The notes under the pieces: model-generated
Databases searched by the model: none
Told to the model about the DNA's origin: nothing
Seen by the model: only the letters and a program-made list of their open reading frames with translations
In this document: positions 16,544 through 64,000 of the stretch, piece by piece
Layout: every line of letters begins with the position of its first letter
How positions within the stretch are numbered: the stretch's first letter is position 1
From: Crossaster papposus
Lineage: Eukaryota > Echinodermata > Asteroidea > Velatida > Solasteridae
Assembly (NCBI GenBank): GCA_037893245.1
Contig: JBAIAA010000101.1
Span: 1 to 64,000 of the forward strand
Reading direction: 5' to 3'
DNA: 64,000 bases
Made by a program: the position numbers and the translations under genes

Positions 16544-19500
16544 TCAGCTCACATCTTCAAAAGGATTTTCTGGTAGGGCATCGGGACAGAGGTAGTTGGC
16601 TAATGCCATCTCGTCATTGATAAAAACAACCTTCTGTGCTGTAATGTCACTCAACCTGTTAAGAAAGAATTAAAAAAAACACGCTCTAATTGTTTAACTA
16701 GATAAATCATATTAAGATGCAGAGTGTCGGCCACAAGTCGGCCACGAGTCGGCCACGAGTCGGCCACGAGTCGGCCACGAGTCGGCCACGAGTCGGCCAC
16801 GAGTCGGCCACGAGTCGGCCACGAGTCGGCCACGAGTCGGCCACGAGTCGGCCACGAGTCGGCCACGAGTCGGCCACGAGTCGGCCACGAGTCGGCCACG
16901 AGTCGGCCACGAGTCGGCCACGAGTCGGCCACGAGTCGGCCACGAGTCGGCCACGAGTCGGCCACGAGTCGGCCACGAGTCGGCCACGAGTCGGCCACGA
17001 GTCGGCCACGAGTCGGCCACGAGTCGTCCACGAGTCGGCCACGAGTCGGCCACGAGTCGGCCACGAGTCGGCCACGAGTCGGCCACGAGTCGGCCACGAG
17101 TCGGCCACGAGTCGGCCACGAGTCGGCCACGAGTCGGCCACGAGTCGGCCACGAGTCGGCCACGAGTCGGCCACGAGTCGGCCACGAGTCGGCCACGAGT
17201 CGGCCACGAGTCGGCCACGAGTCGGCCACGAGTCGGCCACGAGTCGGCCACGAGTCGGCCACGAGTCGGCCACGAGTCGGCCACGAGTCGGCCACGAGTC
17301 GGCCACGAGTCGGCCACGAGTCGGCCACGAGTCGGCCACGAGTCGGCCACGAGTCGGCCACGAGTCGGCCACGAGTCGGCCACGAGTCGGCCACGAGTCG
17401 GCCACGAGTCGGCCACGAGTCGGCCACGAGTCGGCCACGAGTCGGCCACGAGTCGGGCGGGACAGCCGACGGGACAGCCGACGGGACAGCCGACGGGACA
17501 GCCGACGGGACAGCCGACGGGACAGCCGACGGGACAGCCGACGGGACAGCCGACGGGACAGCCGACGGGACAGCCGACGGGACAGCCGACGGGACAGCCG
17601 ACGGGACAGCCGACGGGACAGCCGACGGGACAGCCGACGGGACAGCCGACGGGACAGCCGACGGGACAGCCGACGGGACAGCCGACGGGACAGCCGACGG
17701 GACAGCCGACGGGACAGCCGACGGGACAGCCGACGGGACAGCCGACGGGACAGCCGACGGGACAGCCGACGGGACAGCCGACGGGACAGCCGACGGGACA
17801 GCCGACGGGACAGCCGACGGTCCCGTGGCAAATAAATCAAAGTGACAAACAAATGCCTTTGGATCGATCATTTGAACAGCTTGTAATTTGTTTAGCTAGA
17901 TATTACTTTACGCATCTGGCCAATTACGGGGAAATTACACTGCCTGAATCTACTCGCAGGTTTAGGTTACAAGTGACAGTCAGTCACCACCTTACTACCC
18001 TAGCAAAGAAACATCAAATCAGAATGCATGAAACTAGGTACAATACTTACATAGGTCGTATAATAGCCCAACATCCCTGGAAGACTAACGGAGCATTGAT
18101 AATCAGACATACGCCTAACCTCTCAGGGTATCGTGTGGACAACAGCCATATCAGTGTCTTGACAAACTCATAGTCCATGCTTGCCATGCTGAACTTGCGC
18201 ATGTCAAACAGAACACAAACGTTGTCTATTACGTCTTCGTTGCACTTCTTGCATGCCGCTTCCTAGTGAAGAATATAGAAAATGACGTAGTATATAAGTG
18301 CATCCTAAAATGTAAAGCAGTTTATTCACACCCCCAAAAAATATATATCGAAATCAGATATTTTGGTACTTTTGTATAGTTAAACTTTGAACAACACTTT
18401 ATGCCTGCAGGTGCAACGCGCGCGTCTTTCTCCATATAAGGGCATGATACAAGAGGTGAAATTAAAGAAGAAAATTGTTTGAAAATTGTAAATTTGTGAC
18501 TTGTTTTGACTTTTTGACTTGTTTTGACTTTTTGACTGAAAGGTCGCAGGAATGGGAATAAACCATCTCAGATGTATGGCCAGAGTTTTTTTGTTGTTCC
18601 GAGGCGCTTTTGATGGTTGTTCTTTTGACTTACCAATATATACACCATACATTTAGTCAGGACTTCTTTATTTCGCTCTGCTACCTTGTGGTGTCTAACC
18701 CGTAACATTATCATGGGCCTGCGGCATAAACACAACGAGAAGATAATATAATGTTGCACGGAATACACTGAGGAATTCACATATTTTATTGTTTAATGCA
18801 GTTATTTTATCTGGCGCTGAAATACTTGTTTGTAAATGAACGTATTACAACAAACGTGTTTGGTCTAAACTAAAATTGTTATCCATAACAAAGTAACAAC
18901 AAATCGATATTGCCAACGACACATTATTCTTTTCTTATATAGTTTTCACCACAAAATCATACACAAATTAATGTGGAAAGCAATGCTAACGGGATGATTT
19001 TGAAGGAATGGATAGGTATAACTGCACAGAATTTACTTCGTAGCCATATATACAGGGGCACACTTTCTATGATCATGTAAAACAAACACGTTTAGTACAT
19101 AGAAAGAGTTTTACAACGAAAGGTTACACATATTTGCGTTAGAAGTGAACGTTTGGTATAACGCACCTTCCATGTCGATCGCGGTGCCGAAGCAGCTCAA
19201 CTTTTCTCGTATTCAACTCAGCGCTGACTTCGGGGCAAGACGTTAGGCTGATCGTCTCAACTCCGTACTCTTTCCTCCATTGGTTACACTTTAAGATGGC
19301 AGCGAAGGAGTCGTCAACGTTCTTGAAGGCTTTCAGAAATCGGATTATGCTGGGCGCCGTTAAGTACTGAACAAAAAAATCATATCGGTATCTTTGTCTA
19401 TTTTGTTGGATTGATTGCATTCATCTTTCAATTCCAAAAAAATCATATTAAAATGGGCATAACTGAAAATTGTACCAAAGTTGATTAATTTCCCGATAGT

Positions 19501-25581: not shown

Positions 25582-28500
25582 CTATTCACTCCAGGATACG
25601 TGGATAGTCACGTAGTCAGCAATTCCAACACCTCCACCTAATGCATACATTAATTCAAAAAAGTACGTGGCAACATGGTAATTAATCTGAAACTAACAAA
25701 TGAGACAAACTTTCGGAATGGTAAAAAATACCCTGCCAAATATAATTCCGTCAGAAATAATTTTAATCGATAGAATACAATTTGAGATTTATCTAGATTT
25801 ATCATATACATGTACTAGAACTTTCACTTGATATCGTTAAAATCATTACTAATGGAAGTGGCGTTTGGCGGCTTTTCGGCCTATACTTAGGTTGTTTACA
25901 ATGTAAAGTATATCATTTTCGGCTTTCAAAAAAATGTTTAGAAGTTTATTAGTTTTAAAAGTTATAATGACACTAAACTCCATGTGGAATTAATCCTTCT
26001 GGCATGCTGTCATTCTGAAAAAAACAATGAAAGAAAGTAATTTCCAAAGTTATGTCCCAGAGACTATCTTTTTCTCCCCATCATAGTATTGGTTTATAAT
26101 CCGTGAATGAAGCGCACAAACGTTGACACGACACACGTGCCTGTGTGGTGTCAATGTTTGTTGCTATTGTCGTTTACAATCCAAAAGAAAGATGCAGGAT
26201 AATCCTGATTTCTTTGCATCGTTACCTGGGGATGACATAGTGTGGCTCCATTCCGTCTGAAATATCGTAGTGCTATACATAATGGTGAACGGTTCAACCC
26301 AGGGACAATCTGGCTCCGGCCCAGCAAAGAAAAGCCATCCACTCTCGTCTGCGCAGTTATCTCCATCTTCGTTGATGAGGAAGTGTCGCCCAGGCCTGCG
26401 AAAAAACATTGCAAATGCAATTACATGTAGTTCAAAGCCTTGGTGCTGGTGCGTGTGTTTGGTTTTTTTTGTTTTGTTTTTTTGAGGTGTTGTTGTTGTT
26501 GTTGTTGTTGGGTTGGAGTTGTTTTTTTGGTTTTTTTGGGAGGGGGGCGCAGCAGGGTTGATCACCAATACTAAACAATAAGTCTTCATTCGTACCCACC
26601 GCCCAAAGATGGCGCTAAGAATGGCAAATTTCTTCATATTGCATGACGTAATGTCTTTGAGCCCCCATTAGACAGAATTAGTTTAAACAATTAGTATCCG
26701 TGTGCGCTTAACACGTGCGCGCTGAATGTACGTCTATTGGTCAATTCACTGGGCAACAAGCTAACCACATTGCTGTGAGATCTTGCGTTTCTTTTGCATA
26801 ACGTGGTGAAGCAGGCTAGCCAGTCCCAGCGCCCTACTTTGGGCGGTGAATACGAGACAAGTACGTAGCATGCAACGGCTGATGATCGAGAGTCATTTAC
26901 CAGGACTGGTGGCCTTCCATAGTGAAGTATGTGGCCGAGTATACAACGTCCAACCAGGGAGACGCCATAAGACGGTCTTTACTGAACCAGTTCACGATGT
27001 TGGAATTCACACCGTTGAAGATCAACTGAGCTGCGGGTTGTGCTTCATCAAAGTTGAACAAGGAAAGCTTCACCTTTTTGAGAAAAAAAGGGAAGGTTAT
27101 AGCCTATATAGTTTCAGGCTCGGAGCTCTTATATGTATAAGAGCTCCAAAGACATCAAAGACGTAAATGGTTTTCTTACCAGTTTTAGCTGGCTGCTGTT
27201 GTTGCGCCAAGCATCGTAGATAGACTTGTCACGGTAATGGCCTTCAAGGGTAGAGTCCCAGCGATTGTCGGTCCATATCTCATACAGGCTACGGTTAGAC
27301 GTAGTCTGGCCTCCCAGCCCCTTGAACGCGAGTTGCCACTGCAAGCCTGCCAGAAATCAAAGTTATATTGTGACGGTTAATGTCATTCAGGATTTACCTT
27401 TCTTCTGAATAAAAACATACCTATAGCAAACCCCTAGTACCCAAACCTGTTGTTTTCTGGTTTGTAAATAAGACCTCAATTTCACAGATGTCTACACCAG
27501 GGTTACTACAACGCTGTATTACTATTAGGGACATGGTGAAGATAATTATTTTCTGTCACTTCAGCTAACTCGTACGTACGACTCATATGTCGTACGTAGG
27601 ACTTATATGCCGTACGTAGGACTTATGAAATGTAACTCGTACGTACGACTTATATGTCGTACTTACGACTTATGAAATGCAACTCGTACGTACAACTTAT
27701 ATGTCGCACGCACGACTTATGTCGTACGTACGACTTATGAAATGTAACTCGTATGTACGACTTATATGTCTTACGTACGACTTATACCGGAAGTAGGCCT
27801 ACGCCGAGCCTCATTCGGTAGATAGCACTAGTTTGTCCGCCATCTTTGCATTGTTTGCCGTCCGTTTATTAGTGAGATTAGCCTTTGCTCAGATTGAAAT
27901 TAACTTGTTTAGCTTTAAAGTTTCATTTAACTCGTATGTACGACATATAGATCGTAAGTACGACATATAACTTCGTACTAACGACATAATAAGTCGTACG
28001 TACGACATAATAAGTCGTACGTTAGCTGAAGTGAGAGAAAATAATTATGTTCATCATGTCCCTAATACAGCTTCGTACATTACACTACAAAATATACACA
28101 AATTATTCTCATAAACTAGTGTAGTAAGATCACAGCCATGTAGTATTTTGTGGTTTTGTAAAGAATTGGCTACGCATTGCTGTTTCCAATTCTGTCCTTC
28201 CCCAAAATTGTAAAAATGTACTGATATGTGCACTAGTAGAAGGAAGATAGAGAAAATATTTGTGGAAATTGTGCCTTTGATGATACAAGCACGAAATTTG
28301 GCACACATTCAGAGTATGTCATGAACAATATATTTTGCCATAGGGTCAAATATAAATAGAATAACAAGCAATGGCAGCATTTTTTAAAAAGCAAGAAATA
28401 TTGCTTAGATTTTACCTATATTTGTTTCAAAGGGAAAACAGCCAAATATCTTTCTCATGACATACTCTGACTGTGCGCAAAAAATCCCATGCTTGTATCA

Positions 28501-31500
28501 TCAAATGCACAACCCCATCACCTATCTATAGACTGGCATTACGTACAAGGCGATGCAGAGCATGTGCGGTTGGTAGAGCAGCAATAGGCGTTAGCGAATT
28601 TTTTAGGAAAACCCGTATGCGGGATGAGGTTCTCGTCTGCGTTCCCATTTACGATGTAGTAACACTCGACGTATTCCCAATAGCTACAAGGTGCCAACGC
28701 GGCGTCTCTCCCTTCAACGTCGATCAAGCCCCAATCGTAATCGGCAAAGCCTGCTTGGTAGGCGTCATACAGCTGGGCTAACGTACATAGCTGCATGCCA
28801 TACTGAGAGCAGGCGTGTCTGACTACAGACAAGTAGTCATTAGTAGTAGTATCGAATACCTCAGTGGTTAGGATGATATCAAAAACATCTTAAGAAAAGA
28901 AAAAAAGAGACACAAGTTGTACGTTATTTATACACGATATGAGAACGCTGTTAATTATACGTTGTTAGTATTTGGTACATCAGCTTTGGACGATGTTCTT
29001 GCGGGGGTTATAATGTACCGTCTATAAGCAGTATATAATAGAAGGTGCCAACAAAATTACAGAAAATAATCTTGTGAATTAGTTCGGAGAAGTATTCCAT
29101 TATTGTACAGTATTTTCGGTTGTACATTTTGTGAAAAAAATATCAGAGTTGATTCACCAGTCACCAACATTAGCCCCAATACTTTTGTGTTGATGATAAT
29201 TTCCATTATACAAAATTATATGAGGGTTATGTACCTGCAACATGGATTTTACAGTGACATAATAATATTGGTCGTTTTAACCCAAATACCCAATATCAAG
29301 ATCAAAATAACCAATATCAAGATCAATATAACCAATATCATTAATTATTTTGACCAATATGACTAACCTACTATGTTGGTTATTTTGACCAATATTTGGG
29401 TTAAAATGGCCAATGTCTTAGCTGGACATAGTTTTTTCCAATCACATAGTTATTTTCAACCAATCTGTTTTTACATTGATAATTATTAAGTCTACAAAGA
29501 GTTCATTTACCACTGGCGTTATTTTCCAAGCAGGGAGGTTCTTGGTTTTCAGGAGCAAACAATTCCAGTGAAACGTCGCTTGACTGCAAACAAAATAAAA
29601 GCAATACGTTTTTACGTATGTAATTTCTAAACCAAATTCAACAAGATGCTGGTTACTCTTTTAAATTCACGTGGTTTAATGTCGGTTTTCCGATTTCAGA
29701 TTAGAGTTCACGCGCACGTGACTTGCGTCGTTATCGTTATAATGATACCGTTTATTGGCTCTCAAGGTTGGATTTGAATCATTCTCAAGTTAAATATTTT
29801 CTGCCACCTGTTCAAACTCAAATTAGCAATTTTGACCACTACTTATAACAAATTGGCGGATTAATATATAAAAGTTCTCTTCTTTGTGTGTGTTGTGTAT
29901 ATTGTACATGCGCTTGATAGGTTACATACGTTTTTTTCCTATTCGGCCTAATATAACGATTCTTCTGGTTGCCTGGCTAGGAAAACATAATAAACCATTA
30001 TTTTGTTCAGCACCGTAAGACCGTAGCCCCACCATTCTTTATCTCGACTCAAATTTAACCTCAGGACTCGTTGCCATGGTTAACTGACCAATTACCGTGA
30101 TTAATCATATCTGAACGTTCGCAATCGTCTCACGGACTCTACATTATCGACTCTGATATGAGGCTGGACTCGGTATACCTTGCGAGAACTCAATGTGCCC
30201 CAAACTAATTTGAAAATTTGCGGAGAAATTTGTTCATATACGAACGCGAAATTTAACAATTTTTTGTTGGATGAAACTCAAACATACCACGGACAGTATA
30301 CGTCTTTATGAAGCACCTTCATCAATCGCAAAGGAAGTGTCATATATTTGAATTGCCGCGCAAGGACACGCAGCGTACACATTAATTTGTAATCATGCTG
30401 GCTAAACACATGCTCTATACAATAATTATGTATTTGTGACAGAGTATAATTATATGAAAAGTGAGTAGCGTACGGAAGGCCGTTAGGGCCATGTACCTCT
30501 TTCATGTTTACGGAGATGTGTTTCTCTTCACGGTTGTTGCGTTTCTCTTTCATGGTAGCTCAACTCTCTTTCAGGGATTTACAGTACCGTCAATTTGTAG
30601 TTGACTTGCCTTTGCTATCTCACAGTCAAAGTCGAACAAAATCGGCACAATTTTGGTGCAAAGTTACTAACTGAAATACATGTACTGAAATACTCATTGT
30701 ATTCTTGTTTTTAAATGCAAATGTGCGTCTTTCGTGTTTAAAGATGGACTACAACGAAAACTCACACATTAAATTTATTATCGGACCTTGTTTATGTTGT
30801 GTTCAGGTAACACTTTATTGTTACGGTCATGTTTTTCTCTAAATAATTTTGTTGCAATTTGACCGAGAAAATTAGACCTCGATTCTTCGATTTTGAAATT
30901 TCCCGCCCTGTACTGGTTCCCGGCAAAGATCCACTGAAAACCACAATGAAATCCACGATATAGTACCAGCGGACTTGTAAACCAGCGAAAAGTGATGACG
31001 TACTACCCATGAGCAACCGAGAGTAAACAAAAGACGCCATGTTATTCCGTGTGTATTATGTATGTATGGTGGCCCTGAAGGGACTCCGCAGATCGTGAAT
31101 ATTGACGTCAATATTCACGACAAATTTCACGACTTTCCTCAAAGTCGCGAAAATAGACGTCAAATTTGACGTCAATATTCGCGACTTTTCTAAAAAGTCG
31201 CGAATATTGACGTCAAATTTGACGTCAATATTCGCGACTTTGAGGTAATTCGTGAAATTTGTCGTGAATATTGACGTCAATATTCACGATCTGCGTAGTC
31301 CCTTAAGGGCCACCATATGTATGCGTCTTCATGGGTAGTACGTCACACACAAAGTATGAATTATTCATGAGTTAAGGGCTTTTGCTGAAACTGAGTTTTT
31401 CTGGGTCGTAGAACGCCGATCAATTTTGTGTTTTGTTTGCATGAAGGAACAAGTTTTATTGAATACTAATGATATATTAGTAATCATTATACATTTCTCG

Positions 31501-37400: not shown

Positions 37401-38670
37401 CAATGTAATTCATCTAATTAATTTTATTGTACATTTGCAATTTCTTGCCCACTTCGAATGACAATGTTTTCAAACAGGATTGATTAGTTGCTTTTAATAG
37501 AAAGGCATCAGTTCTTGAAAAAAAGTGTTTTGTCATGTAAATTGTGTATTTTTTAGTGTGTCCCACTTACCCCATAATTATGACTGTCCCACTTACCCCA
37601 TGCACAAAAGAAAATCCGACATTTCAGTCCTGTCATATTTTTCCTCCATTTATCAAAAAATAATGCAGCTAGTGGACCAAAATGATCATTATTTACAGAA
37701 GAGACGTTAACAATGTAAAAAAACATAAATTTTTGTGAATCCAATCTTTTATTTTGGTGCAGCACACAAAAATGTGCTTAAGTGTGCCACTTACCCCACT
37801 TTACCCTATTTAGAGTTTCCACGAAGATACGAATTCCGCGCGCTATGGGCAAAAAAACCACCATCGTTGATTTTGAATTTTCACGAACAGACGAATTTTT
37901 ATCTACATTAATTACTCGTTGTTTATTGTTTTTTTAATAGTTTTGAGATCTCATCTTTCTGTATGTACCAAATATTAGTTCATATGTGCTTTAAAAATAG
38001 GCGAAATCTCTTTTCAAAAGGTGACTAACTTAAAACCTGATTTTTCTTAAAATCAATGTGCAACGCCCCGTAGCCAGATTCGTCTCTTCGTGAAAACGCT
38101 AACAACATATTCGTATACAGTGCATGGTCTTCCTTCAAAATTCGTTTGGAAAAGAAAATCATAATTTCTTATAACTTTGCACGTCACGGTATTTAACACG
38201 TTTAATATGTTCTTAATGCAATACATAATTTGTAATTTGTATACCTCAAATCTTAGAATCATGGTTCGTAAACAATAAAAAACCCAACTTTATTTTAGTG
38301 ATGTACTTGTAATAAAAGAACGCAGGCTTACCTCTGTGTCGATGTAGGAGTAGAACCAGCCTGGACGTGGGACCAAACTATCGGGGACACTTTGGTGAGA
38401 GGCGTTATAAACGAGTTGGCATAGCCCGGTGTCCAACTCGTAGTTAACGGAGCGGCACCATAGCTCGGTCGTGCACGCCCTGTGGCACAGCCCCTGAGTA
38501 CGAGTCTCGATGCGACGCACGCTGTGGTTGAAACCAACCAGCGAAACACCTACCAAGCCACACCATCCTCGCGGGCAAGTCGCCACCGTATCGCCAAAGC
38601 AACTCAAGACAATCCCAATAAACACGCTGGCCGTGAGAGCGGCATACGAACCGCCTCCTACGATGTCCAT
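25582..38670 (-). CDS. Gene A: secreted PAN/Apple-like plus Link-like protein, seven exons
   Basis: Exons: 38332-38670 (ATG), 29511-29583, 28547-28888, 27180-27346, 26901-27073, 26226-26395, 25582-25637 (TAG). All GT-AG, all phases consistent, 439 residues. Hydrophobic signal near the start (MDIVGGGSYAALTASVFIGI). PAN/Apple-like domain about 48-113 (GLCHRACTTELWCRSVNY, GLCQLVYN). Link-like domain about 145-225 (VVRHACSQYGMQLCTLAQLY, DAYQAGFADYDWGLID), lacking one usual Link cysteine. The C-terminal part (252-439; LQWQLAFKGLGG, EIWTDNRWD, GHYRDKSIYDAW, LIFNGVNSNIVNWFSKDRL, RHFLINEDGDNC, GWLFFAGPEPDCPW) matches a recurrent invertebrate extracellular domain whose name I do not know. Probable role is extracellular recognition or adhesion (inference). 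Intron 1 is 8.7 kb. Alternative call: the Link-like label could be wrong, but the exon model is robust. Confidence 0.88.
27513..28071. mobile_element. Inverted-repeat element with CGTACGTACG repeats, copy A
   Basis: Lies between gene A exons 3 and 4. Arms begin GCTGTATTA...GGGACATGG and extend through TAATTATTTTCT and CACTTCAGCTAAC; the right arm is the reverse complement. The inside is rich in TCGTACGTACGAC and CATATG palindromes. Copy B (55854-56762) is 350 bp longer. Confidence 0.75.
29262..29420. repeat. A/T-rich hairpin with CCAATATCAAGATCAA repeats, copy A
   Basis: ATTGGTC-TTTTAACCCAAATA at the left is mirrored by TATTTGGGTTAAAATGGCCAAT at the right. Direct repeats of ACCAATATCAAGATCAAAAT lie within. 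Counterpart at about 58126-58280. Confidence 0.6.
31065..31318. mobile_element. Multi-palindrome element carrying five TGACGTCA sites
   Basis: Ends TATGGTGGCCCTGAAGGGAC and GTCCCTTAAGGGCCACCATA. The whole 254 bp is built of nested palindromes (CGTGAATATTGACGTCAATA, AAAGTCGCGAATATTGACGT). TGACGTCA, the consensus CREB/ATF site, occurs five times, plus one AGACGTCA. Absent from the corresponding place in copy B. Confidence 0.8.
31790..33557. mobile_element. 1768-bp DNA transposon-like element, copy A
   Basis: Inverted ends begin CTGAGACTAAAATACCTAAA and continue for about 34 bp; exact 7-bp direct repeats ATAATAC flank it (31783-31789 and 33558-33564). Copy B is at 60356-62123, the same length, with one end mismatch. 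No transposase frame recognised, so non-autonomous. A 7-bp duplication is unusual among common superfamilies. Confidence 0.85.
33642..33723. mobile_element. MITE family 3, present only in copy A
   Basis: 82 bp, CCCTAACTCCC to GGAGTTAGGG, between TTAA at 33638-33641 and 33724-33727. Copy B has the intact empty target CTTTTAAAGAG at 62201-62211 with a single TTAA (62204-62207). Confidence 0.92.
35746..37803. mobile_element. 2-kb element with GGGGTAAGTGGGACA terminal repeats
   Basis: Left end TAAAGTGGGGTAAGTGGGAC, right end the inverse GCCACTTACCCCACTTTA. The motif GGGGTAAGTGGGACA (or complement) recurs at about 35752, 35770, 37282, 37314, 37557, 37586 and 37788 (the last diverged). It interrupts one unit of a tandem duplication. 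A LINE-like 3' tail (TTGGCCGAATAAATAATAAA) is nested at about 36560-37195. Confidence 0.7.
36560..37195 (+). mobile_element. LINE-like 3' UTR with AATAAATAA tail
   Basis: Sequence from TAGGGCTACAGTG and CCTGGCCAGCTTGGAATG through a C-rich tract to TTGGCCGAATAAATAATAAA. The same hallmarks occur near 45955-46365, which argues for one retroposon family. No reverse-transcriptase frame remains. Confidence 0.5.
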
Positions 38671-51321: not shown

Positions 51322-53065
51322 GTTCTTAACCAGTAAGCACCGGGATTATTTTGACATTGACCGGACTCACAGTTTGTTTGTTTATTAACCATTTTATTAA
51401 ACCATTGACACTTATTAAGAAGGGTTCAGGTCGACATCTGTGGGTAGCACACTCTAAAATGTCCACCCTTGCTCATCACTGCGAGCTAGTTGCTAACATA
51501 TAATTATTGCCTTGCTTATGACATGTCGTTTCGAATTTCGAAAACAAACATTGTATACAATCATGTGTATACATGGCATCGACGCCAACTGGTTAACATA
51601 CACCATTGAGGTGCCTGTAAATAATGCAATCATAATTTAATGTCTGAAGATACCCTACACACATTATAAAGTCACTAAATATTAAATTTGATGCTTCCAA
51701 AAAACACATTGTGGTATAGAGGTACTGATTTTGTGAGGTTTGCTCATGTCAAGTCCAAAGATGACTGTTTGTATAAGTGGACTGTACCAGAGGATAACTT
51801 TAAGTTTGCCTGACAACGTTAAAGAAGTTAAGGAACCAGACTGCAAGAACAGTTCTGTTTTCTTGGTTTTTCCAGCTTATAATTGCCACAACACATTAAA
51901 ACCGGTATATTTACTATAAAATATAAAGCCCCCAACCCATCCATTTCAAAAATTACAGCAAGAGCCTATATAGTGTATACCGGGGTTCAGTAAGAAATGG
52001 TATCACAAACAGTCAAGTATGATGTCGTTTTATGGGAATAGTATGTGCTAGTACCAAATAAGACAATTTTACCTAAATGGCTTCAATAGTTATTTTCTTC
52101 ATTTGTCGTGACTTTATTTCCACAAGTGCATTATGATCAAATTTAAAATGAGTACTGTGCCATACATGATACAATTGCCTTTTTACGTTTTTATAAGATT
52201 AAGAGTTGTTCCCATCTTGTTCTCCCCTTCCCATACCCTTATACCCCGCCCCTTCCCTACAAACAATGGGATTTTTCCTAAAATGATGCTATACAAAGTA
52301 TAGTACGGTGCCCCTGTAGTTGCGTCACTGTGCAGACTGCTGCAGACACATTCCGTTTTCCAATTTTAATTATTGTTGGAAACATAATTGCCCAAAAATT
52401 ACATAAAATGCCTAAAACAACGGTATTTAACCGGCCTAGCCTACACATCTGTGCTAGTGCTAACTCTTCAAACTTGTATCAACGCAGCTAGTATCGAAGC
52501 AAGGCTTACATTTACGCTATCATGACTATCATGAACTTGTATATTCCTCCAAGATACAATCAAACTGTGCTAACACAAGTCATGTTCATGGTCCCACACA
52601 TTTGCGACAATGCATGCATGCAATATACCTGCATGTACTCAAATCTGAAATAATTATATATATTTATGTGCAATAAGCCTATATTATGAAACTTTGATAA
52701 TCGTAGAATATAGTGTTTGCCTACCTATAGCCGATCACTACCATCATAATGCATGCAACAGACGCGAGTATTACTATACTTAATTGTATGTACATCGGAA
52801 CGGCGGCGACGACGACAACTATGAATATATACATTATCTATGGCCAAATATTGATTAGATAATAGATGGTCTCTTCATTCCGCTATTGATCGCAGGTTTA
52901 GTGGATTCGCCACGTGATATCATCCAGCCCAACCCATTGTGTGTTTTTCACTTGAAACTAGTTACAATGTATATTGACTGGCAGTATTAATCTTCCGTGC
53001 ACGTGCAAAGTGTGCTAGTGCGCCATCATCGCTGGTAATTGATGTGGAATATAAAATTAACTTAA

Positions 53066-53217
53066 AGGTAGGATACAATATTTGCAGAAATCGAAAACAT
53101 TTACTACTCAATTATTAAGAAATATCTTACTTATTTGAAAATAAATGATGATTCTAGGCATCTGGCAAAATTATTGCGCTAGATATCCTGAAATTATTTC
53201 AAAAAATACAACTTTAT
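53066..53217. mobile_element. Truncated MITE family 2, copy B only
   Basis: Left TTAA at 53062-53065 and AGGTAGGATACAATATTTGC start, but no right end. Copy A has the uninterrupted site CCAACTTAAAGACC at 23943-23956. After the truncation copy B resumes at sequence equivalent to A 24430, so about 470 bp were lost with the MITE right half. Confidence 0.75.
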
Positions 53218-53318
53218 AAATCGATATATCGCTGCAATGTGTCATCAAGACATGGTTATCCACCAAAAACACGAAGCAAACAAAAACACACGAAGCAAAA
53301 AAAGAACAGTTTATATTG

Positions 53319-53397
53319 TGGCTCTGAAAGGTCATCGCAAATCGTGAATATTGACGTCAATATTCACGATTTTCTATGTCCCTTCAGAACCACCATA
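53319..53397. mobile_element. Short palindromic TGACGTCA element, copy B
   Basis: Equivalent of 24936-25012, with the same CGTGAATATTGACGTCAATA core and GTGGCTCTGA / TTCAGAACCAC ends, here more complete on the right. Confidence 0.7.
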
Positions 53398-53483
53398 TGT
53401 TAAAGAATTTACAGAATTAAAATACATTTAAATATTAGTTTACATATATATGAATACATTAAATCTCAATAAAGAAAGCCACT

Positions 53484-53610
53484 GTGAGACTTTTGAGATG
53501 ATAGCGGGCGCCCCACTAACCGGTTCTTGTTATTGTTCCCAGTGACGAGAATAGAAAAGGACCGGTTGGTGGGGCGCCCCTTATCGTCTCAAAAGTCTCC
53601 CATTATTGTT
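53484..53610. mobile_element. Hairpin MITE (GAGACTTTTGAGATGATAGC), copy B
   Basis: Equivalent of 25088-25215; arms contain GCGGGCGCCCCACTAACCGG and CCGGTTGGTGGGGCGCCCC. Confidence 0.7.
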
Positions 53611-53961
53611 GGCGTTTTTACAATCACTTGACTTTCTGTCAACTAAAATATAATAATAATTAGTTATGCAAAACATGTTGAAAGTGTTGCTAGTAAAACT
53701 ATATTCATTAATTGTGCTAATTATAATAAAACGTGTAATAATATATTGTGCGATATCACACTTTTTTCACGCATGTCCGAGTAGACGAACCAGAATGTGT
53801 GGTTCCTTTGGTTGAACTGTATGGTGTTCTAAAACGGAACTACGACGCTTGCCTGTCCGTTGTAGAACACCATAGGTTTGCCGCCACTAAGAAGGTTCCC
53901 TGCTGTAGATGGTGTGCTGTTGTATAGGAACGTGTTATGGGTACCAGTCTCATGGAACCCT

Positions 53962-56900
53962 CTATTCACTCCAGGATACGTGGATAGTCACGTAGTCAGC
54001 AATTCCAACACCTCCACCTAATGCATACATTAAATAAAACAAGTACGTGGCAACATGGTAATTACTCTGAAACTAACAAATGAGACAAACTTTCGGAATG
54101 GTAAAAAATACCCTGCCAAATATAATTCCGTCAGAAATAATTTTAATCGATAGAATACAATTTGAGATTTATCTAGCTTTATCATATACATGTACTAGAA
54201 CTTTCACTTGATATCGTTAAAATCATTACTAATGGCAGTGGCGTTTGGCGGCTTTTCGGCCTATACTTAGGTTGTTTACAATGTAAAGTATATCATTTGC
54301 GGCTTTCAAAAAAATGTTCAGAAGTTTATTAGTTTTAAAAGTTATAATGACACTAAACTCCATGTGGAATTAATCCTTCTGGCATGCTGTCATTCTGAAA
54401 AAAACAATGAAAGAAAGTAATTTCCAAAGTTATGTCCCAGAGACTATCTTTTTCTCCCCATCATAGTATTGGTTTATAATCCGTGAATGAAGCGCACAAA
54501 CGTTGACACGACATACGTGCCTGTGTGGTGTCAATGTTTGTTGCTATTGTCGTTTACAATCCAAAAGAAAGATGCAGGATAATCCTGATTTCTTTGCATC
54601 GTTACCTGGGGATGACATAGTGTGGCTCCATTCCGTCTGAAATATCGTAGTGCTATACATAATGGTGAACGGTTCAACCCAGGGACAATCTGGCTCCGGC
54701 CCAGCAAAGAAAAGATATCCCCAATCGTCTGCGCAGTTATCTCCATCTTCGTTGATGAGGAAGTGTCGCCCAGGCCTGCGAAAAAACATTGCAAATGCAA
54801 TTACATGTAGTTCAAAGCCTTGGTGCTGGTGCGTGTGTTTGGTGGTTTTTTTTTGTTTTTTTTGAGGTGTTGTTGTTTTTTTGTTTTGTTTGGGAGGGGG
54901 GCGCAGCAGGGTTGATCACCAATACTAAACAATAAGTCTTCATTCGTACCCACCGCCCAAAGATGGCGCTAAGAATGGCAAATTTCTTCATATTGCATGA
55001 CGTAATGTCTTTGACAGAATTAGTTTAAACAATTAGTATCCGTGTGCGCTTAACACGTGCGCGCTGAATGTACGTCTATTGGTCAATTCACTGGGCAACA
55101 AGCTAACCACATTGCTGTGAGATCTTGCGTTTCTTTTGCATAACGTGGTGAAGCAGGCTAGCCAGTCCCAGCGTCCTACTTTGGGCGGTGAATACGAGAC
55201 AAGTACGTAGCAACGGCTGATGATCGAGAGTCATTTACCAGGACTGGTGGCCTTCCATAGTGAAGTATGTGGCCGAGTATACAACGGCCAACCAGGGAGA
55301 CGCCATAAGACGGTCTTTACTGAACCAGTTCACGATGTTGGAATTCACACCGTTGAAGATCAACTGAGCTGCGGGTTGTGCTTCATCAAAGTTGAACAAG
55401 GAAAGCTTCACCTTTTTGAGAAAAAAGGGGAAGGTTATAGCCTATATAGTTTCAGGCTCGGAGCTCTATGTATAAGAGCTCCAAAGACATCAAAGACGTA
55501 AATGGTTTTCTTACCAGTTTTAGCTGGCTGCTGTTGTTGCGCCAAGCATCGTAGATAGACTTGTCGCGGCAATGGCCTTCAAGGGTAGAGTCCCAGCGAT
55601 TGTCGGTCCATATCTCATACAGGCTACGGTTAGACGTAGTCTGGCCTCCCAGCCCCTTGAACGCGAGTTGCCACTGCAAGCCTGCCAGAAATCAAAGTTA
55701 TATTGTGACGGTTAATGTCATTCAGGATTTACCTTTCTTCTGAATAAAAACATACCTATAGCAAACCCCTAGTAGTAGCACCCACACCTGTTGTTTTCTG
55801 GTTTGTAAATAAGACCTCAATTTCACAGATGTCTACACCAGGGTTACTACAACGCTGTATTAGGGACATGGTGAAGATAATTATTTTCTGTCACTTCAGC
55901 TAACTCGTACGTACGACTCATATGTCGTACGTACGACTCATATGTCGTACGTACGACTCATATGTCGTACGTACGACTCATATGTCGTACGTACGACTCA
56001 TATGTCGTACGTACGACTCATATGTCGTACGTACGACTCATATGTCGTACGTACGACTCATATGTCGTACGTACGACTCATATGTCGTACGTACGACTCA
56101 TATGTCGTACGTACGGCTTATACGCGTACGTACGGCTTATATGTCGTACGTACGGCTTATATGTCGTACGTACGTCTTATATGTCGTGCGTACGGCTTTT
56201 ATGTCGTGCGTACGGCTTTTATGTCGTACCTACGGCTTATATGTCGTACGTACGGCCTATATGTCATACGTACGACTTTATGTCGTACGTAGGACTTATA
56301 TGCCGTACGTAGGACTTATGAAATGTAACTCGTACGTACGACTTATATGTCGTACTTACGACTTATGAAATGCAACTCGTACGTACAACTTATATGTCGC
56401 ACGCACGACTTATGTCGTACGTACGACTTATGAAATGTAACTCGTATGTACGACTTATATGTCTTACGTACGACTTATACCGGAAGTAGGCCTACGCCGA
56501 GCCTCATTTGGTAGATAGCACTAGTTGTCCGCCATCTTTGCATTGTTTGCCGTCCGTTTATTAGTGAGATTAGCCTTTGCTCAGATTGAAATTAACTTGT
56601 TTAGCTTTAAAGTTTCATTAACTCGTATGTACGACATATAGATCGTAAGTACGACATATAACTTCGTACTAACGACATAATAAGTCGTACGTACGACATA
56701 ATAAGTCGTACGTTAGCTGAAGTGAGAGAAAATAATTATGTTCATCATGTCCCTAATACAGCTTCGTACATTACACAACAAAATATACACAAATTATTCT
56801 CATAAACTAGTGTAGTAAGATCACAGCCATGTAGTATTTTGTGGTTTTAGGTGACGTTATAATATGTTAATAGGCGATGGATGTACAACATCGATGACAG

Positions 56901-58437
56901 CTACTAAAGCACGAAAATGGCTGGGCGTTTATTGAAGAACACATTGAAGAATGGGCTACGCATTGCTGTTTCCAATTCTGTCCTTCCCCAAAAATGTAAA
57001 AATGTACTGGTATGTACACTAGTAGAAGGGCAGATAGGGGGAATATTTGTGGAAATTGTGCCTTTGATGATAAAAGCACAAAATGTGGCACACATTCAGA
57101 GTATGTCATGAAAAATATATGTTGCCATAGGGTCAAATATAAATAGAATAACAAGCAATGACAGCATTTAAAAAACAAAAGAAATATTGCTTAGATTTTA
57201 CCTATATTTGTTTCAAAGGAAAAATAGCCAAATATCTTTCTCATGACATACTCTGACTGTGTGCAAAAAATCCCATGCTTGTATCATCAAATGCACAACC
57301 CCATCACCTATCTATAGACTGGCATTACGTACAAGGCGATGCAGAGCATGTGCGGTTGGTAGAACAGCAATAGGCGTTAGCATATTTTTGAGGCGAACCC
57401 GTATGCGGGATGAGGCTCTCGTCTGCGTTCCCATTTACGATGTAGTAACACTCGCCGTATTCGTAATAGCTACAAGGTGCCAACATGGCGTCTCTCCCTT
57501 CAACGTCGATCAAGCCCCATTTGTCATCGGCAAAGCCTGCTTGGTAGGCGTCATACAGCTGGGCTAACGTACATAGCTGCATGCCATACTGAGAGCAGGC
57601 GTGTCTGACTACAGACAGCAAGTAGTCACTAGTACGAGTATTGAATACCTCAGTGGTTCTGATGAAATCGAAAACATCTTGAGAAAAGGAAAACACAAGT
57701 TGTACATTATTTATACACAATATAAATGAGAACGCTGTTAATTATATACCTTGTTCGTATTTGGTAGACCACCTTTGGACGATGTTCTTTGGGTTATAAT
57801 TTTATAATATTTAATAGAGGGTGACAACGACATAACAGAAAATAATCTTGTGAATTCATTCAGAGAAGTATTCTATTATTGTACAGTATTTTTAGTTGTA
57901 CATTGTTTATGTGCAATCTGCATCCCTCTTTTCGTGAAAAGATATCAGGGTAGATTCACCAGTCACCACCATTAGCCCCAATACGTTTGTGTTTATGATA
58001 ATTTCCATTATACAAAATCACTTGAGGGTTATGTACCTGCAACATGGATTTTACAGTGACATATGTTCATTAAATGTGCAATTGGCAACAAAATAATGGT
58101 TGAAAAAACTCACCATTGGTGTCCAATAATATTGGTCATTTTAACCAAAAATACCAATATCAAGATCAAAAAACCAATAGCAAGATCAAAATAACCAATA
58201 TCATTGGTTATTTTGACCAATATGACTAACCAACGACGTTGGTTATTTTGACCAATATCTGAGTTAAAATGACCAATGTCATACCTTTCCAATCAAATGG
58301 TTTTTTTTAAACTAATCTGTTTTTACATTGATAATTATTATAAGTATACAAAGAGTTCATTTACCACTGGTGTTATTTCCCAAGCAGGGAGGTTCTTGGT
58401 TCTCAGGAGCGAACAATTCCAGTGAAACGTCGCTTGA
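53962..58437 (-). CDS. Gene B: paralogue of gene A, exons 2-7, 5' end off window
   Basis: Exons in transcription order: 58365-58437, 57333-57677, 55515-55681, 55239-55411, 54606-54775, 53962-54017 (TAG). Same phases as gene A, no frameshift or stop, 327 residues. The PAN-coding first exon should lie about 28.5 kb from that of A, beyond base 64000. Link-like exon: one extra codon (DYLLSVV for DYLSVV) and 14 replacements, including W to Y, V to G, A to M, D to K, K to Q and F to Y. Exon 6 changes ADESGW to ADDWGY. Exon 4 has Y to C in GH(Y/C)RDKS, exon 5 one D to A, exon 7 none. Synonymous differences are few (about 5 in all). Both copies therefore appear functional and divergent; expression is unknown. 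Confidence 0.85.
55854..56762. mobile_element. Inverted-repeat element with expanded CGTACG array, copy B
   Basis: Same arms as 27513-28071, in the equivalent intron of gene B, but 909 bp long because of the internal array (separate entry). Confidence 0.75.
55906..56292. repeat. 20-bp tandem repeat CGTACGTACGACTCATATGT
   Basis: Ten perfect units from 55906 to 56105, then about nine degenerate units (GGCTTATATGT variants) to about 56292. Copy A has a single perfect unit (about 27567-27586). Open frames reading MSYVRLICRTYDSYVVRT are by-products of the 20-bp period. Confidence 0.95.
58126..58280. repeat. A/T-rich hairpin with CCAATATCAAGATCAA repeats, copy B
   Basis: Equivalent of 29262-29420; ATTGGTCATTTTAACC at the left and GGTTATTTTGACCAAT / GAGTTAAAATGACCAAT at the right. 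Confidence 0.6.
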
Positions 58438-59245
58438 CTGCAAACAAAATAAAAGAAATAAGTGTTTACGTATGTAATTTCTAAACCAAATTCAACAAGA
58501 TGCTGGTTACTCTTCCAAATTCACGTGGTTTACTGTCGGTTTTCCGATTTCAGATTAGAGTTCACGCGCACATGACTTGCGTCGTTATCGTTTTAATGAT
58601 ACCGTTTATTGGCTCTTAAGGTTGGATTCGAATCATTCTCAAGTTAAATATTTTCTGCCACCTGTTCAAAATCAAATTAGCAATTTTAACGTTAAATTAT
58701 AACACATTGGCGGGTTAATATATAGAAGTTCCCTTCTTTGTGTGTGTTGTGTATATTGTACATGCGCTTGATAGGTTACATACGTTTTGAAAACATCTTG
58801 TTTTTTGTTGCTTTTGCAGTCAGAGATCCACTCTGCGAATAGACTGGTTCACGGACTTTATATTATCGACTCTGATATGAGGCTGGACCCAGTCTACTTT
58901 GCGAGAACTCAATGTGCCACAAACTAATTTGAAAATTTGCGGAGAAATTATTTCATATCCAAACGCGAAATTGTCGATGTCTTAAGTGAATAACCTTTGT
59001 AATATTAGAACAAATCCAAATTAAATTTGACAATTCTTTTTGGGCTGAAACTCAAACATACCACGGACAGTATACGTCTTTAATGAAGCACCTTCATCAA
59101 TCGCAAGGGAAGTGTCATATATTTGAATTGCCGCGCAAGGACACGCAGCGTACACATTAATTTGTAATCATGCTGGCTAAACACATGCTCTATACAATAT
59201 GTATTCGTGACAGAGTATAATTGTATCCAAAATGAGAAACGTACG

Positions 59246-59640
59246 GAAGGCCGTTAGGGCCAGGTACCTCTTTTTCTTTCATGGAGATGTGTTTCTCTTC
59301 ACGGTTGTTGCGTTTCTCTTTCATGGTAGCTCAACTCTCTTTCAGGAGTTTACAGTACCGTCAATTTTAAATTGGCTCCCAAGTTTCTGCAAGAGAATAT
59401 AAGTCGCGGCACCGAGTGACTAAGTAGCGGCCGCCACTTAATCACAATAACAGAGAAATACACCCCTGTGAACAAAAATTAAATTTTCCCTCGAAATAGA
59501 GAGACACGCGTTCTGAAAGATACGCTACCATGAAAGAAAAACGCACTACCGCAAATACGAAGCGCACCTCCGCGAAAGAGAAACACACCACCGCGAAAGA
59601 GACACACAAGAGCGCGAAAAAGAACCGTAACGGGCTTCCG
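59246..59640. mobile_element. Inverted-repeat element, both arms only in copy B
   Basis: Left arm CGGAAGGCCGTTAGGGCC...TTTCTCTTTCATGGTAGC, right arm reverse complement ending CGTAACGGGCTTCCG. Tandem (GTGTTTCTCTTTCGCGGTGG)-like units in the right arm. Copy A keeps only the left arm (about 30473-30556). Confidence 0.6.
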
Positions 59641-60355
59641 TAGTACCGACGCCATTAATGGACAACTTTATGGGGTTTTGTCTGGCCGGGGTTGTTTATT
59701 TATTTAAAGGAAAATATACAAAATTGGATCTTTAGGCCTTACACTATTAAAAAATCAATACATTTCTAAAGTATCCACCCCTGCAAATATAACTCCCAAT
59801 AACACTGCACTGTTTACGTATTGTACAAGTAAATCATAATGACTTACGGATGATCAGTCGAAAGACTTTGTAAATACTCGTTAACAAAACGTACCCTATA
59901 ATACTTTGTACTTTTACGATTTTGTGTTATCCTATAGGAAGTCGCCTATCGCCGAAAGGTTTAGATGTGTGTGGCTTTTGTGTTTAATTATATTAATTTC
60001 AGATTTTAACGGGCAGACTGTATCTCTCTCACGATCTTGCCTTCTTCACAGTTATACTCTTGTTTATGTATATTTTTAATGGATTTTATATAAGATATTG
60101 TATATTTGTATGTGGAGAGAAATAAAATAAGAATAAGAATAAATAAGAATAATGTACATGTGAACCCTCAACATACAATGTGTAACATTCTGTAATAAGA
60201 TGTGGCATAGGCCATTTTAAATTGAAATGAGGACTGAGGGGAGAACATGATCTTACCAAAGCAAGGTGTCAACCAAGCTTAATTCTCATTCCTTTAAATA
60301 CTGAAACAACAGAAAGGACATCCGACAAATGATGCTAACGTGTGTTGAATAATAC

Positions 60356-62123
60356 CTGAGACTAAAATACCTAAAGAGATAGGAAGCAACGACCGACTCC
60401 CATTGTCACGCCTTCGACCGTATCCTACAGAGTCTGCTGCGCCAGTGCATCTTTCGACGACAGCGGCGCTATTCGCGTCTTGACATCCAACATGGCGAAC
60501 ATAATCGAGAAAAGCTAGCTCCGAAAACATGCGATATTTCGACGCATTTTTCACGACAAATAGTCAGCGAAGTTATAATTTTAATTGATGTAAGTTTCAA
60601 TCCGATAATTCTTTACATAAATATGTGCTTTGGGTTATATTAAGTTACGTATAAAAGAGAAAATAAACCGATACCGCAACGATGTTTCGTCGTTTTACTT
60701 CCGTGTGACTTTGTATACGAATTCGGAAGTCCATATTTTCGGCGATGTTGCCCTTAAAAATGACCCATTTGTGCTTTAATTCACGCAATACTGGTGATAT
60801 ATAATTTGTTTGTAGAAGCTGTTTCATAAAATTTGAACTTTGGACCGTGTCACGTACGTTTTTAAAACATTACCAGATTTTCAGGGAATCATCACAAAAA
60901 GTCCAGAAATCAGGAAAAAATACGATTCTGTTCATTTATGATCTATATTTCACATTTTAAGTAAAAACTGTGACTATTTTGCATCAATTAAAGTTGCAAT
61001 AATCATTAAAATATCAAAAACTAACATGGTAGATACATTTTAAATGTGTTCCTGTGTGCACTCAATGCATTGAAAATAGAATATTATATTTCATATTCCT
61101 ATAATTTAGGTCAACAAATTGTGTATTTTGGGGCAAAAATGGTTTCCAACATGTTTCCAATGTGTATAAAAAAGGGTCGTGATGTTATACAAATACCTGG
61201 TTATCATACTACATGTATTGCCTAGGTCTTATTATTACCTTATTTAAAATGGATTGAATGTATTTTATTGATGTCAGAGTAGCCTATTCACTGAATGCAA
61301 TTTATAATGAGCCATGTTTTTGATTATCATACATATTTGGTGCTTAAAAAGCGTTTTTGTGATTTTTTTTTACAAAAATGGACTGCCGAAGTAGTGAAAG
61401 GCATAATACAAGAGTTGCCAGACTCAAAAGCATGTAATAATATTAGAGGTTGCCAAAGGGTCATGTGTGTACTAAACACATCTATCACATCTAATACAAA
61501 CATGTAGATTGATTGATCTTGACGATCTTAATTTTGGGCTAAAATTTATATTTTTAATGATTTTCACAAACACAACATGACCCCGAAACCCCGATGTTGA
61601 TGTATATTGTTTGTTACACAATGGACATTGGTAGTGTTTGCGTGATTTTTCTTTCGGTTTTGAGTCAAGATTTTCTATGCCGTCATTTTTTGGTTCAACT
61701 TCAAGAATCTCATCGTTTTCGCTGCTTAGCCACTCGTTTTCTGATACCAGAATCTCCGCTTGTTCGGTGTCAGTCCAGTTGGCTTCTCCTAGAACATTAT
61801 TTAAATCTATTTACGCCCAATTTACAAAGTCATTTAGATCTGCTAGTGCCATGTCTCTTTTTAATACGAAGAGTTTTTTATTCACGTTGTTTACAGTTAG
61901 CTGTCAAATTTCTGAATAGTCTGGGTCAGTAAAAGGTCGCCATAAAGTACTCTGTACATGCGCACAAACGCTCAACTCCTAATTTGGGCCGACGAAACAG
62001 AAGCGACTTTCTCGCCATCGAGTGGATCGCGTAATTAGCATAACAATACCGCATAGGACGCTGTGCACAGACAGAGCCGTCTGAAGTGCTTGCTTCCTAT
62101 CTCTTTAGGTATTTTAGTCTGAG
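60356..62123. mobile_element. 1768-bp DNA transposon-like element, copy B
   Basis: Same CTGAGACTAAAATACC ends (one mismatch at the right) and the same ATAATAC flanks (60349-60355, 62124-62130) as 31790-33557, so the insertion predates the duplication. No transposase recognised. Confidence 0.85.
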
Positions 62124-64000
62124 ATAATACGAGCTATTTAGGTACACTAATCATTTAGAACGTCTTGTACCAAAATGTGACCCAACCCTGTTAAATAAGT
62201 CTTTTAAAGAGTAGTTTTTAGTGTTTAGTTTTTTAAATGTATTTGAAAACCCATTATTCGATCTTCATTTTGTGCATCACTCAGGTTGACACCTTTAACC
62301 AGGCAGATGAATATAAAACGTTTATCACGGCGAAGAAAGTAAGTTGACAATTGGGTTTTAAAGTTACAGAATTCAATCGGTGATTTGGCAGCCAATTTAT
62401 TGTTGATTTTGTTATTACAATGAGATTTACAAGACATGTAATTGTAATTTATGGCCTTTTCGAAACCTTTGCTTCATCTTCGTCTTCGGCTTCGCCTCAT
62501 TAAGAAGCAAAGAGAAATGGAAGCAAAAATATTCGATCTTTTGAGTCCACATCAATCGATTGAATGCTTCTGAAGCACTACAGGCATCAGAATGTGGCTG
62601 GGAATCTAAAATCGCCTTAAGCCAAAAACGAAGATGAAGGCAGGGATTCGAAAAGACCATTAGATCTATATAGTAGTTCTAACCCATCGCTTGACAGGGG
62701 CGAATCTCGCGTTAAAGAAAGGGAAGGGGGGAGGTGACATGGGAAGGGCGAGTCTAAGGTGTGTCGAAGGCACGCTCCACCTAGGATAATTTCTCATACA
62801 TTCCTATAGGCAATTCGATAATAAAATGTTGAAACTGCAGCATTCCTTTTATGGGACCAATTTACACTTTTCATAACATCAGTCAGTGGCTGAACGGGAG
62901 TGGGGAGGGGGGGGGGGGGGGGGGGGGGAGGAGGAGGGGGGGGGGGGGGGTGGGGGGTGGAGGATAGAGAGGGGAGTTGGTGGTGCCACCCCCGTCTATA
63001 GATTCGCTACCGTTTTGCTTATCTAAAATAAAGGGAAATGGCCTTTGAAAAATCAATTGATAAAGTAAAACTAATTTGAGCTTGACTTTGCTTAATTTAA
63101 ATTATATTCGTTGTTCTTTCCTGAAACCCCGTTTTAAATTATAACAACCAAATTGAAATGGTTCCTCTCAGCCCTAGTACTAGCCTATGGAGGTAAACAA
63201 AAGTAGAACAGGGTAAAATGTTTTTTAAAGTTCGTGTGTCCGCGCTTTTAAGGGGTTACACCCGGAAAAAATATATTTTCAAATTGAATTGATAATTTTC
63301 TAGCATTGCATTTATTATGAGCTTTCGATTTGTTATAAAACATCCCACGAAAACAATAGGCCAACGGCGAGTAATTAATTAATTAAATTATAATTATGAA
63401 TTAGGAGTGTCCCAGTATGCACAACTTAACTGGCATGGTGCGCGCAATTGGCGCAATGATAACAACCACTTTTAAACAATGTGTAAAGGCCTGCCAATGC
63501 GTTTTCACGAAGAACAGAATTTGGTCAAAATTATTATTTTTTTGAAATTCGTTTTTTGCCCGAAATCGATTAAGTGGATAGCAACGAACATTCTCGCGAG
63601 GATGATTTTGTCAAAATCAGTTTGAATCATTAAGATTACGAAAATCATACAGGGGACAATTTTACCCAAATCGTATTTTCAGTTTTCACGAAGATACGAA
63701 TTATAATTTGTCCCTGCGTAGATAAAAAATAACGTTGCTCCGAGTGCAAAAACAACGCGGGTACATAATGAATTTTTGAGTTTGCACGAAGAGACGAATT
63801 CTGCGCGCTATAGGCAAAAAAGCACCCACCGTAATTTTTTGAATTTTCACGAACAGACACATTTATATCTACATTAATTACTCGGCACTTAAGTTGTTTA
63901 ATGTTCTTTAATTGGTACACTTTTTAGGTTTGAGACCTTACCATTCTGTACGTACCAAATATAAGTAATATGCAAAAGAAAAAATTCACCGTGAAAGAGT

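Follow-up and report, generated by a model that had tools for sequence, protein, structure and literature searches.

The 64,000-nucleotide window analysed here (positions 1 to 64,000, forward strand, of contig JBAIAA010000101.1, assembly GCA_037893245.1, of the sea star Crossaster papposus; contig C101 below) carries two copies, A and B, of a multi-exon gene whose third exon (e3) is hypervariable and encodes a region resembling a Link module. Both copies lie on the minus strand, on the two sides of a segmental tandem duplication. Exons e2 to e7 are placed by their splice sites, and in both copies the modelled exons have AG/GT at all internal splice sites. The features, in window coordinates, are as follows.

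38332..38670, minus strand: copy A exon e1, with start methionine, hydrophobic leader and PAN/Apple domain, located by tblastn with the Patiria protein P0001
29511..29583, minus strand: copy A exon e2
28547..28888, minus strand: copy A exon e3 (342 nt), Link-like and hypervariable, in frame, 88% amino acid identity to copy B
27180..27346, minus strand: copy A exon e4, conserved, ratio of replacement to silent rates (dN/dS, omega) 0.31 over 18 copies
26901..27073, minus strand: copy A exon e5, with a variable loop inside
26226..26395, minus strand: copy A exon e6, with variable patches
25582..25637, minus strand: copy A exon e7 and stop codon
58365..58437, minus strand: copy B exon e2
57333..57677, minus strand: copy B exon e3 (345 nt), Link-like and hypervariable, open frame, AG/GT splice sites, Xlink score 18.5 bits against a cut-off of 27
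55515..55681, minus strand: copy B exon e4
55239..55411, minus strand: copy B exon e5
54606..54775, minus strand: copy B exon e6, with the ADDWGY patch
53962..54017, minus strand: copy B exon e7 and stop codon
22527..35521: segmental tandem duplication, side of copy A (self-blastn; identity of 82-99% in the matching pieces, which are separated by gaps)
51820..64000: segmental tandem duplication, side of copy B (self-blastn; the match runs on to the window edge)

The seven exons of copy A, from 38670 down to 25582, encode an uninterrupted protein of 439 residues. Copy B has e2 to e7 inside the window; the e1 taken as its own lies beyond it (C101:66813-67151) and is identical in protein sequence to that of copy A. 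An initial sequence-only reading of the window held that the pair shows no pseudogene decay, and this is correct for A and B, in which the frame and splicing of e3 are intact. Elsewhere in the assembly, 4 of 35 e3 copies (L013, L022, L035 and L036) are broken, and the other 31 have intact frames. In the intron between e3 and e4, a 20-base unit that is partly self-complementary, TCGTACGTACGACTTATATG, is repeated in an array, with about 10 copies in A (27570-27786) and about 28 in B (55905-56479). Lying near the variable exon, this array is a possible recombination-prone spot. Upstream of copy A e2, about 253 bases (31065-31317) match their own reverse complement at 94%, and no such self-complementary stretch was found at the corresponding place in B among matches longer than 150 bases.

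The PAN_1 domain (PF00024) of the spliced protein A scores 26.2 bits, above the Pfam cut-off of 21.4. Kyte-Doolittle windows above 1.6 are found in copy A only near the N-terminus, and no hydrophobic segment follows the leader in this copy. Judged from sequence, the product is likely a secreted binding protein. The description of e3 as Link-like rests on weak matches. A sub-threshold match to Xlink (PF00193) is found in 10 of the 11 sequences scanned, but neither copy reaches the gathering score of 27 bits (A 16.9, B e3 18.5), and the best score among the homologues is 19.9 bits (P0003). An AlphaFold2 model of e3 built from five sequences is weak (mean predicted local distance difference test score, pLDDT, 44; single-sequence model 32). 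Foldseek returned no significant match with the pLDDT 44 model; four of five non-significant matches to this weak query are C-type lectin or Link modules. Since Xlink stays below threshold and no structural match is significant, "Link-like" is a lead and not an assignment to the family.

The nearest proteins are the uncharacterized Patiria miniata LOC119727533 (P0001) and LOC119731808 (P0002) and Acanthaster planci LOC110984432 (P0003), which share 63, 47 and 40% identity with copy B, respectively, over 98% of the query. P0001 and P0002 carry PAN_1 above the Pfam cut-off, and P0003 falls just below it. No homologues beyond these three asteroid proteins were found in protein, profile and region searches of limited sensitivity, and no paper naming the three genes was found in the literature searched. 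Only three homologues were thus found in Patiria and Acanthaster, whereas the present assembly holds tens of copies.

In the assembly (1.02 Gb, 1841 contigs), near-full-length copies of e3 number at least 35, with fragments in addition; all 148 candidates of the copy search were scored, and the fragments were kept outside the tests. Contig C101 (1.45 Mb) carries four e3 copies on one strand, spaced 26.6-33.5 kb apart, and a fifth at 933 kb. First exon e1 is represented by 34 close open copies, one without its first ten residues. The gene is therefore one of a family of similar, clustered copies in tandem arrays. A further 53 match rows at 28-43% identity are Link-like, many of them in arrays (contigs C322, C800, C321, C68, C419 and C288), and may be sister repertoires. 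One distant match, L066, has a single frame with two apparent domains and an Xlink score of 25.3 bits, just below the cut-off of 27.

A size of 1.02 Gb is large for a sea star, so both haplotypes may be present in the assembly. Near-identical copies lie on different contigs (C417/C544 and C59/C145; L028/L034; L032/L033/L037), which points the same way. The haploid gene number could therefore be about half of that counted, and some copies are probably alternative haplotypes. The same two observations are what speaks for an assembly artefact, in which A and B would be two haplotypes wrongly laid in tandem. This is highly improbable given four same-strand tandem copies with differing spacings on one 1.45 Mb contig and an uneven identity between A and B (82-99%); the selection test described below also holds without five near-identical copies.

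Variation in e3 was analysed over 31 intact copies; the codon tests used 113 codons, with fourteen mostly gapped columns omitted. Five columns carry 8-9 different residues and several carry 6-9, while much of the exon is invariant. Position 62 is D throughout a five-sequence alignment (A2), whereas the 31 intact copies show six different residues there. Columns 19-51 are nearly invariant even at third positions (nucleotide diversity 0.010, 26 copies); for comparison, intron diversity in 26 copies is 0.066 in the 54 bases downstream of e3 and 0.139 in the 57 bases upstream. Elsewhere, variable and frozen codons alternate: columns 12, 14, 16 and 64, 66, 68 vary, and 13, 15, 17, 65 and 67 hardly do. 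Such alternation is expected of strand residues that would face one side. In the last loops, third-position diversity is 0.22 in block 85-90, where it equals that of first and second positions, and 0.25 in block 99-115. Taken together, the variable blocks (47 codons, picked after the data had been seen) show less variation at third positions than at first and second ones (P 0.0002). Silent and replacement diversity are both raised in columns 85-90 and 99-115, and some copies have codon insertions there.

The sequence-only reading had called diversifying selection from A and B alone. A codon alignment reproduces its e3 counts: 14 codons with replacements, a codon inserted in B, and 2 codons that differ by silent changes alone. 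The exon 6 replacements (ADESGW/ADDWGY) do come without silent change (5 replacement differences, Nd; 0 silent differences, Sd), and exon 7 encodes the same peptide in both copies. The "strong excess" of replacements, however, is not borne out once sites are counted. By Nei-Gojobori path counting (NG86), e3 has 19.0 replacement differences (Nd) over 266.2 sites and 4.0 silent differences (Sd) over 72.8 sites. The corresponding proportions are pN 0.071 and pS 0.055, a ratio of about 1.3 with a one-sided Fisher P of 0.42; for e2-e7 combined, pN/pS is 1.07 (P 0.54). With neither ratio significant, the pair was dropped as proof of selection. The near-identity of flanking introns also holds only regionally, at about 28.1-26.75 kb around e4-e5 (0-1.3% divergence per 150-base window) and not in the introns adjoining e3 (2-18%). 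Given this difference, e3 sits in an older or unconverted block.

Selection on e3 is instead a matter of the whole family. Under model M0, omega is 1.60, and M2a improves on M1a by 259 in twice the log-likelihood difference (2dlnL). Null simulations with recombination and flat silent rates reached at most 17.7 in 20 runs. When roughly one codon in four was given a six-fold rate, with recombination and with omega nowhere above 1, all 20 runs gave values of 103-313. The M1a/M2a and M7/M8 comparisons were accordingly dropped as decisive for e3, since silent-rate variation combined with recombination mimics their signal, and a calibrated dual-rate test was used. This is a three-class codon model with free silent rates, in which omega is either held at or below 1 or left free. 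On the 31 copies, freeing omega gains a 2dlnL of 68.6. The gain is 58.1 without alignment-ambiguous columns, 64.8 with 26 de-duplicated copies and 124.5 on a tree built from the intron flanks, which align poorly (mean p 0.24). In sixteen data sets simulated under the fitted hypermutable null, eight of which included recombination, the gain stayed at or below 6.93; these fits had fewer starts and iterations than the real ones. The fitted selected class comprises 14% of e3 codons, with omega about 12 and a silent rate 1.6 times the base rate, and 10 of the 113 codons have a posterior above 0.95 for it.

In a second fitted class (21% of codons), omega is 1 and the silent rate is near six, so that silent and replacement rates are both raised. 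For this class 17 of the 113 codons have a posterior above 0.95, and 12 of the 17 lie in columns 85-115. Local hypermutation or cassette copying, by which the variable patches would be neutral variation in DNA hot spots, finds footing in this class and in the third-position diversity of blocks 85-90 and 99-115. With omega held at or below 1 and silent rates free, the log-likelihood is -2862.2, compared with -2982.4 for M1a and -2852.7 for M2a. As a general explanation, hypermutation is nevertheless very unlikely. It does not account for a gain almost ten times the simulated null maximum, for intervening codons that stay nearly frozen, or for third positions that vary less across the 47 codons. 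Diversity-generating retroelement (DGR)-like adenine mutagenesis was rejected because third-position A is nearly fixed in several variable codons.

A held-out test that uses no tree gives a similar picture. In 200 random splits of 26 copies, variable codons were picked in 13 copies and scored in the other 13, where their median pN/pS was 2.20 (95% of splits 1.64-3.11). The median is 5.36 (2.49-29.57) in unambiguous columns, and 0.75 for the remaining codons. In the held-out variable codons pS is likewise greater (0.186, compared with 0.079), but it falls to 0.080 when only unambiguous columns are used. Given this raised pS and the raised-rate class in columns 85-115, the last loops (85-90 and 99-115) carry more than selection, with misalignment, block replacement or local mutability acting besides it. 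Scattered e3 codons do show the signature of diversifying selection, which almost certainly operates in the family. The earlier claim thus fails for the A/B pair and stands across the 31 intact copies, on the dual-rate test, the held-out test and the codon-by-codon alternation. A dN/dS reading of two copies can lack statistical support and yet point to a real pattern at the level of the family.

The other exons differ from e3 in their signal. The tests of e4, e5 and e6 used 18, 19 and 14 of 22 long copies, the rest having no such exon in the fetched stretch or a stop; L022, with stops in e4 and e6, was left out. Conserved e4 shows no gain under M2a. The PAN exon e1, tested on 21 copies (A plus 20 of 33 other close copies), has an omega of 0.64 and a 2dlnL of 2.2, with no signal of selection. 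M1a/M2a values of 69 for e5 and 64 for e6 come from ordinary site models only, which reach 103-313 under simulated silent-rate variation, and are thus weak evidence. In nine of the 21 e1 copies (L050, L051, L053, L055 and L057-L061), an internal segment close to the end of the PAN exon (ASHHSVPDSLVPRLGW...) is duplicated in frame, and e1 thus differs in length between copies.

A third tandem copy at 84 kb (L009) forms a mosaic with A and B. Up to e3 it is B that resembles L009, and soon after e3 it is A, with the change of partner falling inside the exon. Over the gene, the three copies show 77 runs, whereas 10000 permutations average 147 and never fall below 122; inside e3 alone, P is 0.0024. 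Alignment columns that differ between A and B in e3 number 18, two of which are the inserted B codon. At 15 of them the A state recurs among the 29 other intact copies, and the same number holds for the B state. The pairwise homoplasy index (PHI) test over the family is marginal (47 of 1000 permutations). Members of the family have very probably undergone recombination or gene conversion, as judged chiefly from the A/B/L009 mosaic. Gene conversion with a third paralogue, foreseen in the sequence-only reading as an alternative to selection, therefore applies in part, and selection at the level of the family is still supported. Relaxed constraint with gene conversion from diverged paralogues goes further and would make the A/B differences shuffled old variants, with no driven replacements. 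The A/B ratio near 1, the presence of most A and B states in other copies and the mosaic tracts agree with it. It leaves unexplained why, across the family, omega lies well above 1 at scattered codons of e3 next to an e4 omega of 0.31, and is extremely unlikely.

The explanation favoured here, at a probability of roughly 60%, is a tandemly expanded, recombining family of secreted PAN and Link-like proteins, with diversifying selection on a putative binding face and a function in immune recognition. The family would have grown in tandem, its copies being patched by recombination or gene conversion. In each encoded protein, e1 would supply the leader and PAN/Apple domain, e2 a linker, e3 the Link/C-type-lectin-like region and e4-e7 the C-terminal part. 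The variable e3 codons, at alternating positions and in loops within a frozen framework, would supply the residues of a ligand-binding face. Selection may favour new binding specificities because the ligand keeps changing. The ligand would most likely be microbial or parasite surface material, which would make the family a germline-encoded repertoire of recognition or opsonin type.

Several of the results above weigh against this explanation: the missing significant fold match, the non-significant A/B ratios, the codons with raised rates at omega 1, the higher pS of the held-out variable codons, the marginal PHI result, the weak e5 and e6 signals and the probable presence of alternative haplotypes. 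As to function, an immune role is slightly more likely than not, since immune recognition often lies behind designs of this kind. Reproductive recognition, in which sexual conflict or species recognition would act on secreted proteins of the egg coat, sperm or spawning signals, is unlikely, although diversifying selection alone cannot separate it from immunity and sea-star bindin is reported to be under positive selection in the available portions of two accounts (PMC3605852; PMC4063459). A family of tens of copies, with patches of variation in three exons, would fit a function with many ligands better than a single mate-recognition pair. Allorecognition, in which copy sets differing between animals would tell self from non-self tissue, is quite unlikely. 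Most known allorecognition receptors have a membrane segment, unlike copy A, which has none after its leader. The mosaic copies are in keeping with it, as are the two differing haplotype arrays that order and resemblance make possible for C417/C544. Allorecognition that matures after metamorphosis in Patiria pectinifera also counts in its favour, according to the available part of PMC13428168.

A more specific and tentative proposal, on balance doubtful, is that sea stars possess an undescribed germline repertoire. Its Link/lectin-like domain would serve as an antibody-like variable domain, in which strand residues at alternate positions, together with several loops, vary from copy to copy on a frozen scaffold, joined by variable loops of e5 and e6 in the C-terminal region. 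Intra-exon gene conversion would reshuffle the loops among tandem copies and perhaps between haplotypes. A repertoire of scaffold plus variable loops would be a concrete gene set for asking what sea stars recognise, disease outbreaks included, and the gene array is a natural system in which to separate selection, gene conversion and mutation.

Two further repeat regions lie in the window, away from copies A and B. At 7572-8640 (plus strand), ten copies of a 108-base repeat share one open frame that runs on upstream, with 36-residue units that start TDSEGNRPGGNQFQPVQSVDS, some of them shortened; the product is probably a repetitive glycine/glutamine-rich protein. At 16726-17820, two near-perfect satellite arrays (99-100% matches) abut, with about 66 copies of the 11-base unit GTCGGCCACGA followed by about 30 copies of the 12-base unit CGGGACAGCCGA.

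No diversified immune gene family of this kind was found described for sea stars in the literature searched. The domains of FREPs, VCBPs and Dscam differ from the combination of PAN and Link-like regions. In the available part of PMC13428168, these are binding proteins diversified in animals without lymphocyte receptors, which resembles the role proposed for the present family. Sea urchins have well-studied diversified immune gene families. Copies of one of these, SpTransformer (Sp185/333), recombine among themselves. SpTransformer is defined as a two-exon gene with repeats in exon 2 in the portion of PMC5491942 available, a definition that sets it apart from copy A, with its seven exons, PAN domain and Link-like region. 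The likeness lies in the arrangement of similar echinoderm genes in clusters with tandem segmental duplications and, as far as the available text of PMC8634487 goes, some SpTransformer gene pairs have dN/dS above 1 and others below.
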